Positions 6,950 to 31,769 of a stretch of DNA of 35,832 bases are shown piece after piece. The translations under genes were made by a program, and so were the position numbers. Origin of the DNA: Candidatus Omnitrophota bacterium (GTDB lineage: Bacteria > Omnitrophota > Gorgyraeia > Duberdicusellales > 4484-171); the NCBI GenBank assembly GCA_023135905.1, contig JAGLSE010000019.1:1-35832 (forward strand), in the 5' to 3' direction. The stretch's first letter is position 1, and each line of letters begins with the position of its first letter. The notes below the pieces were generated by a model. The model was not told the origin of the DNA. It was given only the letters and a program-made list of their open reading frames with translations, and searched no databases.

Positions 6950-7705
6950 ATGTTTTTTATTAGAAAATTTAAGTATATAATGAATATTAAAATATTTTTT
7001 GTTTATTTTTTGAGATTAATCTTTTTGAGTTTTTTTATGTACAATATTTCTTTAAATATTGTTTTGGGAGAAGATATTGAAGAAAGATTCCAAGGTACAG
7101 ATAAAATGCTTTATAAGGTTTATTTTAACGGTATACCTTCAGGAGTAATAGAGTGGGAATATCTAGGGGTAGAAGCTGTCAAAGGTAAAGATACTCATGT
7201 GTTGTCTTTAGATGCCGATACAAAAATTTTTAAACTTTTAAATTTAACAAGTAATGATAAGGTTTTTTTAGATGTTGAAACATATCTCCCTCTTAGGGTA
7301 GAACGGGATGTTACTTGTTTCGGTAAAAAAGAATTTATAGAAGAAACTTATAATCAGAAAGAAGGGATTGTGAAAATATTAAAAGATAATTCTAAGGAAG
7401 AAGAAATAATATATCAAGATGTTCCTATACAAAATATTTTGGCCTTATTGTATTTTTTTCCGGAAAATATAACTTTAAAACAAGGTGAATGGATGAGTTT
7501 TAATCTTCCAACGCAAATAGTAAAAATGAAGTTGTTAGAAGAAAGAGTTTTGAGTATAGATAAAAAAACTAAAACCGCGTATTTTATTATAGGTAGAGGA
7601 GCAAAGAGATTTAATCTTTGGTTGGATAAAGATGATAGAATGCCTTTACGGTTGGAATTTATTTTACCTGTGGGGAAAGTTATAATTAAAAGAGTTAGTA
7701 GCTAA
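6950..7705 (+). CDS. DUF3108-like secreted/periplasmic protein
   Basis: N-terminal hydrophobic signal segment; MLYKVYFNGIPSGVIEWEY...LPLRVERDV...FNLWLDKDDRMPLRLEFILPVGKVIIKR resembles DUF3108 proteins. Confidence 0.55.
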   Translation: MFFIRKFKYIMNIKIFFVYFLRLIFLSFFMYNISLNIVLGEDIEERFQGTDKMLYKVYFNGIPSGVIEWEYLGVEAVKGKDTHVLSLDADTKIFKLLNLTSNDKVFLDVETYLPLRVERDVTCFGKKEFIEETYNQKEGIVKILKDNSKEEEIIYQDVPIQNILALLYFFPENITLKQGEWMSFNLPTQIVKMKLLEERVLSIDKKTKTAYFIIGRGAKRFNLWLDKDDRMPLRLEFILPVGKVIIKRVSS

Positions 7706-7812
7706 GGTAACCTTGATTTTTTACCCTAACGGGCACAGGGCAAATTTTTCTGTGGAAATTTTAGAGTCGATCTTTCGGGCAAATAAGGCTAACTGCATTA
7801 TTTGGGTTAAGA
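7701..7812 (+). ncRNA. candidate structured RNA / leader element, copy 1 (strand inferred from lpxA)
   Basis: GCTAAGGTAACCTTG..TTTTTACCCTAACGGGC..GAGTCGATCTTTCGGGCAAATAAGGCTAACTGCATTATTTGGGTTAAG. Homologous to 31669-31769; conserved helix CAAATAA/TTATTTG with loop core GCTAACTG. Confidence 0.6.
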
Positions 7813-7873: not shown

Positions 7874-8764
7874 ATGATTCATGAAAAAGCAATAATTGAT
7901 AAGGAAGTAATCTTGGGGGAAGGTGCAGAAATTGGGCCTTATTCTGTTATAGAAAAAGGGGTGCAATTAGGTAAAGGTGTGAAAATTTCTCCTTTTGTTC
8001 ATTTGAAATCTAATACTTTTATTGGAGACAATACTTTTATTGGAACAGGGGCAGTGATTGGTGAAATGCCTCAGATGTCAGGGCAGAGAGAGAATTTGGG
8101 AAAAATTCATATAGGGAAAAACAATATTATTAGAGAATATGTAACTATTAATTCTTCGAGTAGCCCTGAGAAATCCACGTCTATGGGAGACGGTAATTTT
8201 TTAATGGCATTTTCTCATATTGCTCATGATTGCAAGTTAGGTAATAATATTGTTATTTGCAATGGTACTATGCTTGCCGGTCATGTGGAGATCCAAGATA
8301 AAGCATTTATATCAGCTGATGTGGGAGTTCAACAATTTATTAGAATAGGAGCTTTAACCATGATAGGAGGTCTTTCTAGAGTTACTCAGGACGTTCCTCC
8401 CTTTATGATGGTAGTTGGCGGTTCTAGGGTAAGAGGATTGAATCTTGTAGGTATGAAACGACATTCTTTCACTAAAGATGATATTAAGGCGATAAAAAAA
8501 GCTTATAGTTTTCTTTATCGTCAAGACTTATCAATCAAAACCGCTTTATCTAAGTTAGAAACTATTGATTCAGAAAAAGTAAAAAAAATTATTGTTTTTA
8601 TAATTGCATCTAAAAAAGGAATTTGTAGTGCCCATAAAAGTAATTTAATAGAAAAAATATTTTTAGATTATCCATATTTATTGAGAACTAGAGTGTCGGG
8701 TTATCATTTATATCTGAAAACAAAAAAAGATATTTATGCCAAACGAATGAAAATTAGAGATTGA
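7874..8764 (+). CDS. lpxA: acyl-[ACP]--UDP-N-acetylglucosamine O-acyltransferase (LpxA family)
   Basis: Hexapeptide repeats; SHIAHDCKLGNNIVICNGTMLAGHV; DVPPFMMVVGGSRVRGLNLVGMKRHSF. ATG at 7874 (MIHEKAIID) with upstream aaagggg preferred over the track's TTG at 7844. Confidence 0.92.
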   Translation: MIHEKAIIDKEVILGEGAEIGPYSVIEKGVQLGKGVKISPFVHLKSNTFIGDNTFIGTGAVIGEMPQMSGQRENLGKIHIGKNNIIREYVTINSSSSPEKSTSMGDGNFLMAFSHIAHDCKLGNNIVICNGTMLAGHVEIQDKAFISADVGVQQFIRIGALTMIGGLSRVTQDVPPFMMVVGGSRVRGLNLVGMKRHSFTKDDIKAIKKAYSFLYRQDLSIKTALSKLETIDSEKVKKIIVFIIASKKGICSAHKSNLIEKIFLDYPYLLRTRVSGYHLYLKTKKDIYAKRMKIRD

Positions 8765-30310: not shown

Positions 30311-30343
30311 AGGGATTGTTGCGTTTAGAAACAGTCCCTTTTT
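30311..30343 (+). terminator. Rho-independent terminator downstream of smc
   Basis: AGGGATTGTT-gcgtttaga-AACAGTCCCT (10-bp stem, one G-U) then TTTTT; touches the 3' end of the convergent GGDEF gene. Confidence 0.8.
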
Positions 30344-31496
30344 AGGTGAGAACTACTTGGTTTTTACCGTTTCGTTTAGCTTGATATAAGGATTTATCAG
30401 CTTGATTAATAATTGTTAGTTTATTTAATCCATCTTCAGGATAAGAAGAAATACCTATGCTTACGGTAAAATTATAGGATATTATTTCTTTTTGTTCAAT
30501 TGATTTACGAATCCTTTCTCCGAGTAAATTAGCATCCTGTTTATTGTTATTAGGCAGTATTAAAGAGAACTCTTCACCGCCATAACGGCATAAAATATCT
30601 ATTTTACGGCAATTTTCTTTAATTATTGCGCTTAATTCTTTTAAGGCATTGTCTCCTTGAATGTGGCCATAAGCATCGTTAAATTTTTTAAAATCATCAA
30701 CATCTATCATCATTACTGAAAGGGGTAACTTTATAGAATTAGCTTTTATTAATTCTTCATCTAATTTATATTGAAAATAGCCATAATTCCATAGGGAAGT
30801 TAATGAATCAGTATGAGCTTTAGTGAGAGTGCTTTCAAAAGATTGAGAGTTTTCTATCGCCCCGGAAGCTTGTTCAATAAACATATTAAAAATTTTGATA
30901 TCATCGGGCTCAATAGGTTTTTTAGTGACACAATTATCGACTATTATTATACCTTTTGCTTGGTTTTTTATCCATAAAGAGCAAATAAGAAATTCTTCTA
31001 GATTTAATTTTTGAATTAAAGGATCATCTTGAAATTCACTGCTGCTTAATTTTTTAAAATGGAAGGTATTGTTTGTTTGAAGCGAATCAAATAATATTTT
31101 GTTTTCAGAACAATATTCAAAAGTAAGAGATCTTATAAATTCAATAAACAGGTAAGCCATGTTTTTGGAAGTTTTAATGAAGTTATAATTATCAATAAGA
31201 TCGTATAAATTTTTTTTATCTTTTTCTATGCTATGCCATATAGCTCCGGATTCCTTGCTGTCCATGGGACCTATGCCCATAAATCCTTGAACATTTTTTT
31301 TATCATTATCTAAGAATAATAGAACAGCTCGATTGAATCCCAGGCCTGCATGAGCAGTAATGCCAGTCAAAATAATATAGGTTATTTCATCAAGCCGAAG
31401 AGTTGTTCTCATGGCCTTGTTTAATTCATAGAAAATGTATAACTGTGAGCGAACTTTATCTAATTCTTTTTGTAACCTTTGAATTATATCATTCAT
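30342..31496 (-). CDS. GAF-like sensor plus GGDEF diguanylate cyclase
   Basis: MMIDVDDFKKFNDAYGHIQGDNALKEL, CRYGGEEFSLILPN; RKID five residues upstream of GGEEF fits an RxxD I-site. Confidence 0.93.
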   Translation of the reverse strand: MNDIIQRLQKELDKVRSQLYIFYELNKAMRTTLRLDEITYIILTGITAHAGLGFNRAVLLFLDNDKKNVQGFMGIGPMDSKESGAIWHSIEKDKKNLYDLIDNYNFIKTSKNMAYLFIEFIRSLTFEYCSENKILFDSLQTNNTFHFKKLSSSEFQDDPLIQKLNLEEFLICSLWIKNQAKGIIIVDNCVTKKPIEPDDIKIFNMFIEQASGAIENSQSFESTLTKAHTDSLTSLWNYGYFQYKLDEELIKANSIKLPLSVMMIDVDDFKKFNDAYGHIQGDNALKELSAIIKENCRKIDILCRYGGEEFSLILPNNNKQDANLLGERIRKSIEQKEIISYNFTVSIGISSYPEDGLNKLTIINQADKSLYQAKRNGKNQVVLT

Positions 31497-31668
31497 ATAA
31501 AATAATTAATAACATATTTGCTATAAAAAGTCAATGGTATAAGGAAGTAAGGTTATTGAAAACAATTAACCCGGAAAATGCATTTGAAAAAAACCTTTAT
31601 ACGCAATGAATAATAAACGAAATGCTTATGTGAAAACTGCGATGTACAAAATAATACCTTTACATTTT

Positions 31669-31769
31669 GCTAAGGTAACTTTGTCTTTTTACCCTAACGG
31701 GCTTTCCCCTGAAAATTTTGGAGTCGACCCTCCGGGCAAATAATGCTAACTGAATTGTTTGGGTTAAGG
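31669..31769 (+). ncRNA. candidate structured RNA / leader element, copy 2 (strand inferred)
   Basis: GCTAAGGTAACTTTGTCTTTTTACCCTAACGGGC..GGAGTCGACCCTCCGGGCAAATAATGCTAACTGAATTGTTTGGGTTAAGG; homologous to 7701-7812. Confidence 0.6.

Follow-up and report, generated by a model that had tools for sequence, protein, structure and literature searches.

The window analyzed here, the whole 35,832-nucleotide stretch of contig JAGLSE010000019.1 from a Candidatus Omnitrophota bacterium, contains two look-alike stretches in the gaps between protein-coding genes. The original prediction placed them at 7701-7812 and 31669-31769 and regarded them as two copies of one structured RNA. The genes around them, and the parts of each copy as we now delimit them, are as follows.

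6950..7705, + strand: DUF3108 protein gene, whose stop codon abuts copy 1 (Pfam PF11306, E 2.3e-7)
7706..7810, + strand: copy 1, a 5'-truncated element with the four-way-junction (3') domain only, GGTAACC...GGGTTAA (covariance model R1, 49.8 bits, E 3.3e-8)
7721..7738 (approximate), + strand: optional internal unit of copy 1, ACCCTAACGGGCACAGG
7771..7779, + strand: small hairpin P3 of copy 1, TCT-TTC-GGG, which is the G-U hairpin of the original prediction (from the sequence; family consensus CCC-TNC-GGG)
7780..7804, + strand: terminal palindrome of copy 1, arm P4, CAAATAAGGC-TAACT-GCATTATTTG, with one G-A mismatch (from the sequence)
7874..8764, + strand: lpxA-like acyltransferase gene, downstream of copy 1 (Pfam PF13720, PF00132)
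30342..31496, - strand: GGDEF protein gene, divergent from copy 2 (Pfam PF00990, E 4.2e-44)
31566..31767, + strand: copy 2, a full-length element of 202 bp, TTAACCC...GGGTTAA (full alignment of copies)
31566..31572, + strand: left terminal inverted repeat of copy 2, TTAACCC
31674..31767, + strand: 3' domain of copy 2 (covariance model R1, 54.4 bits, E 2.8e-9)
31761..31767, + strand: right terminal inverted repeat of copy 2, GGGTTAA
31966..33105, + strand: aspartyl-protease domain protein gene, downstream of copy 2 (Pfam PF13975, E 5.3e-20)

The two stretches are present as described and are homologous: they align over their whole length, share the motifs listed earlier, and copy 1 used as a BLAST query against its own genome recovers copy 2 at E = 1e-20. 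Given this E value and ~25 further convincing copies, their likeness is far beyond chance. The same search returned 46 places in this genome (G000; 1.66 Mb in 150 contigs), about 25 of them convincing, so that what had been taken for two elements is instead a family scattered through its own genome in at least 25 copies. The element was found where it had been placed, but the span given for it covers the 3' domain only: copy 2 really occupies 31566-31767, while copy 1 is best delimited at 7706-7810. The TAA at 7703-7705, which terminates the DUF3108 gene, is host sequence, since it is also present in a relative (G001) that lacks the element at this site. Both window copies have mismatches in their long arms and are partly decayed. 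The claim that changes between the copies preserve pairing consequently holds only in part, with these mismatches and with single-stranded DNA fold z values of -2.1 for copy 1 and -0.15 for copy 2.

For most copies, homology runs ~100 bases upstream of the start given in the original prediction and has sharp limits on both sides. The complete element in this genome is ~195-213 bp long with the ends TTAACCC...GGGTTAA, near-complete copies measuring 192-219 bp here and 92-396 bp in other genomes. It is thus within the size range of a MITE (non-coding and less than about 500 bp), and no conserved reading frame was noted. The terminal inverted repeats, TTAACCC and GGGTTAA, extend imperfectly to ~16 bp, as in a MITE, and TTAA stands at both ends of 28 of the 40 full-length copies, a count that is biased upward because the copies were found via motifs containing those ends. 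A typical short copy (195 bp) reads TTAACCCGAAAAATGCATTTG ... CAGTTATGTAAAAACTG ... GTACAAAATAGTAC ... GCATTTTTCTAAGGTAACCTCGACTTTTCCAAATTTTCCCGTGGAAATTTTGGAGTCGACCCTCCGGGCAAATAATGCTAACCGCATTATTTGGGTTAA. Long copies (~212 bp) consist of the short form plus an extra ACCCTAACGGGCACAGG, a unit that is missing from short copies and tandemly repeated in copies of G009. The complete element contains several palindromic arms, whose tips gain and lose hairpin units (ACCCTAACGGGC and GTGCGAAGCCTNCCCGTCAGGGTA, for example), and internally deleted copies are also found (L019, L041, L053). These features support the earlier description of a non-coding, folding element with length-variable arms.

We scanned 85,462 species genomes for the exact terminal-hairpin pattern, which yielded 65 stretches, all of them in Candidatus Omnitrophota or Omnitrophica MAGs (named RS_11_35, 4484_171, STA_84, CSMAG_794, STD1_205 and GMC4); the pattern was absent from IMG/VR contigs. 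Covariance model R1, built on the 3' domain, had hits in 13 of the 37 genomes searched within the same family, among them 68 hits in G019 (RS_11_35), 30 in G009 and 25 in the window's own genome. The covariance-model search of related genomes that had been proposed earlier also located more distant relatives: a broader model, R2, matched 39 of the 285 Omnitrophota genomes sampled, which belong to many families of the same class plus one genome outside it, usually with 1-14 copies per genome. Both models were run on Omnitrophota genomes, and other phyla were covered by the exact-pattern scan alone. Most copies in G019 lie at contig ends, as expected where near-identical repeats break assembly, and for this reason the element may be partly responsible for how fragmented Omnitrophota metagenome assemblies are. 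None of the papers searched mentions both Omnitrophica and miniature inverted-repeat, a weak hint that this repeat has yet to be described.

In the 3' domain, abutting palindromic arms meet in a four-way junction whose sequence is conserved. P1 is formed by TAACC and GGTTA, P2 by CGAC...GTCG plus a long distal hairpin, P3 by CCC-TNC-GGG, and P4 by CAAATAATGC and GCATTATTTG, with compensatory changes. The junction nucleotides CCCCGAC..GTCGGCCC..GGGC are conserved and the order of the four arms is identical across families; the distal P2 hairpins and the P4 arms are plainly palindromic, with sequences unrelated between copies. RNAalifold gives the same four-arm fold. When 20 copies representing several genera were aligned with MAFFT, compensated double changes were present in 8 of 32 pairs and 95.3% of cells paired, compared with 26-54% in slid controls, and none of 500 shuffles reached any of the five measures used. 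A model-fitted alignment of 32 copies from many families showed double changes in 25 of 32 pairs (0 of 500 shuffles), with 131 double-change cells versus 33.6 in shuffles and a covariation score of 0.399 versus 0.125, figures to be read with the bias of such an alignment towards structure and with shuffles that ignore relatedness. Within the genus, covariation was weak (21 copies; 25 of 500 shuffles equalled the double-change cell count), and it is therefore the cross-genus sets that carry the claim of covariation. For two copies belonging to other families, the DNA-fold z values were -6.7 and -7.1. The covariation anticipated by the original prediction was thus found once copies from many genera were compared, and the fold is real and old, a single fold having persisted across many families of this uncultured phylum despite replacement of its arm sequences. 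Although the copies are placed in a dispersed manner, this covariation means that they do not form the plain dispersed repeat that had been named as the alternative to an RNA.

We compared the insertion sites with those of G001, a member of the same genus, and found that insertions differ between close relatives. The genes flanking copy 1 are present in G001 at 83% identity, separated by a 91-base gap versus 151 bases in the window, and the element is absent; the same holds for copy 2, whose flanks occur in G001 without it. Orthologous flanks without the element were also found for L003, L005, L012 and L016, so that at least six copies are absent at orthologous sites in G001, the pattern of dispersed presence and absence that characterizes MITEs. 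The one clean empty site, at L016, reads AAATTAAATG in G001 versus AAATTAA-ACCC...GGG-TTAAATG in G000, which fits a duplication of either 4 bp (TTAA) or 2 bp (TA), the two being inseparable here and the other sites too diverged. Other copies are common to both genomes (L008/L033, downstream of a gspF-like gene, and L018/L041). Since some copies are shared and others absent, the insertions are of different ages, and insertion has continued over time.

Taken together, these data indicate that both stretches probably belong to a single family of small, mobile and non-coding MITE-like palindromic repeats (probability roughly 0.78). The element has the size, inverted ends, copy number and presence/absence pattern of a MITE, and it is best read as an undescribed, class-wide, cruciform-prone MITE-like repeat that is moved in trans. 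A transposase supplied in trans would recognize the element ends and insert copies at AT-rich TTAA/TA sites. The palindromes would matter as DNA, with extruded arms or ends recognized as structured DNA; alternatively or additionally, template switching during replication may keep the arms matched. Hairpins arising at the arm tips would make arm length variable, old copies would decay, and any effects on the stability or processing of neighbouring mRNAs would be incidental. Against the MITE-like reading, the putative target duplication is represented by a single clean empty site that fits TTAA and TA alike, and the depth of the fold across families is unusual for MITEs, so that an added function is conceivable. 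In most descriptions, the MITE-like repeats of bacteria are confined to a species or genus.

The original prediction had instead proposed a riboswitch-like leader or small RNA; such an RNA, or a 3' UTR element, would act on the adjacent mRNA, with the copies forming a regulon. The strong covariation of the four-way junction and the location of most copies in short intergenic gaps favour this reading, as does the orientation of the copies in the window's own genome, where ten of the 14 copies between co-directional genes are in sense (+E+ 10, -E- 4, others mixed), a one-sided lean that also counts against the MITE-like reading. Across 41 loci of other genomes, in which genes were called by simple ORF length, the split is 13 sense to 14 antisense (+E+ 13, -E- 14). 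The copies lie next to unrelated genes (lpxA, uppS-like, yebC/ruvC and gcvPA/gcvPB, among others, named by eye except for the four window genes assigned by Pfam), and the same genes occur in the sister species without the element. The fixed sense orientation and related gene set of a riboswitch are therefore not seen among these loci. The inverted terminal repeats and precise ends also speak against an RNA. The Rfam search suggested earlier found no family matching the element in the window at the gathering threshold and chance matches only at relaxed thresholds, and in ten loci with distant copies only nearby RNase P and tRNA genes matched. A likeness of CACAGGGCAAA to the c-di-GMP-I motif was dropped because of this lack of an Rfam match and because the segment lies in the optional internal unit.

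On its own strand, a folded RNA can accommodate G-U pairs but not A-C pairs. Departures from standard pairing in the element were nearly balanced between G-U and A-C, at 18:15 across families and 64:48 within the genus, neither ratio being significantly unequal, whereas a tRNA control (acceptor and T stems from the same loci) gave 11:0 (Fisher p = 0.008 for the difference). G-U pairs made up 1.9% of standard pairs in the element versus 5.4% in the control. Although this control is small and an RNA signal would be weakened by the inclusion of decayed copies, the one-strand wobble tolerance typical of an RNA was not observed, even though pairing is conserved; the slight, non-significant excess of G-U over A-C and the blurring expected from decay are points against the MITE-like reading. 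The occurrence of both orientations, the differing genes and the near equality of G-U and A-C argue that the palindromes are kept at the level of DNA rather than RNA. The inverted-end, dispersed copies, missing from orthologous sites in a sister species and showing no strand preference in wobble, thus make a structured RNA very unlikely. The element is also a warning that convincing covariation in a covariance model does not prove an RNA, and the symmetry of G-U and A-C departures offers a cheap check.

An autonomous element with the same ends is expected for a MITE, and such elements are often lost. No partner of this kind accompanied the transposases examined (IS1380-type, DDE_Tnp_1 and Y1), which weighs against the MITE-like reading, and no longer element with a transposase between its ends was present in the loci examined. 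TTAA had suggested an IS1380/piggyBac-type partner, but the only clear match, in G001, was broken and lacked the element ends. DDE_Tnp_1 (PF01609) genes were few and their ends did not match. Y1/RAYT genes occur in 8 of the 9 element-bearing genomes checked; among 30 Y1-transposase loci, however, no clear element stood beside the gene, in contrast with the adjacency of REPs and RAYT genes. At one locus of 4484_171 (L073, MVCW01000044; G009), a terminal hairpin lies inside a RAYT-like ORF ~40 bases from the contig end, which could be either an insertion into that ORF or an assembly join.

The element could also move as folded single-stranded DNA, with its hairpins as the enzyme substrate, in the manner of integron attC sites, IS200/IS605 ends or REP/RAYT systems. 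This route would account for the terminal palindromes at both ends, for pairing that is conserved while sequence varies around a conserved junction, and for the variable terminal arms, and it is consistent with the frequency of RAYT-type transposases in element-bearing genomes and with the element end in a RAYT-like frame in G009. IS200/IS605 elements lack inverted-repeat ends, however, whereas this element has them, and the RAYT genes are not flanked by it; we consider the single-stranded route unlikely. It is rather doubtful, too, that the four-way-junction fold is the substrate of an unknown, phylum-wide mobility system that reads it as extruded or single-stranded folded DNA, but if this were true, the element would represent a novel type of structured mobile DNA, unlike MITEs with their ordinary double-stranded ends. 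A different proposal is that no structural selection acts and that the arms stay paired only via replication template switching between them, which concerns the cause of the covariation and not mobility and is thus compatible with the MITE-like reading. The double changes with few wobble intermediates fit this proposal, as does a paired one-base gain (A-T) in both arms of the terminal palindrome of L022 (G000:C116; CAAAATAATGC/GCATTATTTTG). There is a published precedent (PMC8794818), in which template switching is described as creating and maintaining hairpins with compensatory changes. The conserved junction bases and the same order of arms across families would nevertheless require selection or recent shared ancestry, and we consider template switching as the sole cause possible but not likely. 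Whether covariation in repeats results from structural selection or from template switching is a question for which the element provides a natural test.

Several known repeats resemble the MITE-like element in part. ERIC sequences, 127-bp intergenic palindromic MITEs of enterobacteria (PMC10969869), are similarly short, non-coding, dispersed between genes, imperfectly palindromic and present in tens to hundreds of copies, but they differ in length and host (compared here by description), and the Omnitrophota element is distinguished by TTAACCC ends and a four-way junction that covaries across families of the phylum. BOX elements of Streptococcus (PMC3049150) share conserved end modules, repeated internal modules that vary in number, a folded structure tolerating arm variation and a wide length range; their modules and host are different, and the Omnitrophota element has hairpins (for example ACCCTAACGGGC) as its internal units, with TTAACCC/GGGTTAA at its ends. 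RUP and Correia elements (PMC3049150, PMC10969869) are also non-autonomous MITEs with inverted ends and many copies, but an IS630-like partner has been proposed for RUP by end similarity, whereas none was found here among the transposases examined. The BrickBuilt MITE of Porphyromonas gingivalis (PMC4596501) is likewise intergenic and host-restricted with an internal short tandem repeat (minisatellite), although it is described in one species, and its abstract mentions no comparable multi-arm covarying fold. REP/BIME repeats and their RAYTs (PMC3733652 for REPs) provide another parallel, as extragenic palindromic DNA repeats with related Y1 transposases in element-bearing genomes, but REPs are 20-40 bp long, while this element is 195-213 bp, has inverted ends and does not lie beside RAYT genes. 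Judged by eye, the element ends fit the RYYYAAC...GTTRRRY boxes of integron attC sites inconsistently. Compared with textbook MITEs, the element is set apart by the depth of fold conservation and its covarying four-way junction.

Several copies showed further rearrangements. Direct repeats of the element ~120-130 bp apart were observed in L055/L063 (RS_11_35, JAGLUN010000012) and in the tandem copies L014/L020 (G000:C103), the second copy of the latter pair being internally deleted. Solo 36-bp perfect palindromes, TTAACCCAAATAATGCnnnnnGCATTATTTGGGTTAA, comprise the terminal hairpin and both inverted ends only (L065:324-359, L091:5811-5845, L101:4048-4083) and are apparently minimal derivatives. 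In L023 (G000:C105), the P3 hairpin of the element contains a nested palindrome, GCGCGAAGCCTCCCCTTGGGGGATC, and G019 copies carry related units in tandem arrays (GTGCGAAGCCTNCCCGTCAGGGTA). Another short palindrome, CTTCGTCCTTCGGACTACGGCGGGCAAG, which may be an independent repeat family, occurs in tandem inside and near elements in G009 and at other Omnitrophota loci (e.g. L034, L078). Finally, L211 (G240:C157:3373-3600) carries near-identical tandem four-way-junction domains with similar spacers, suggesting tandem amplification rather than fresh insertion.
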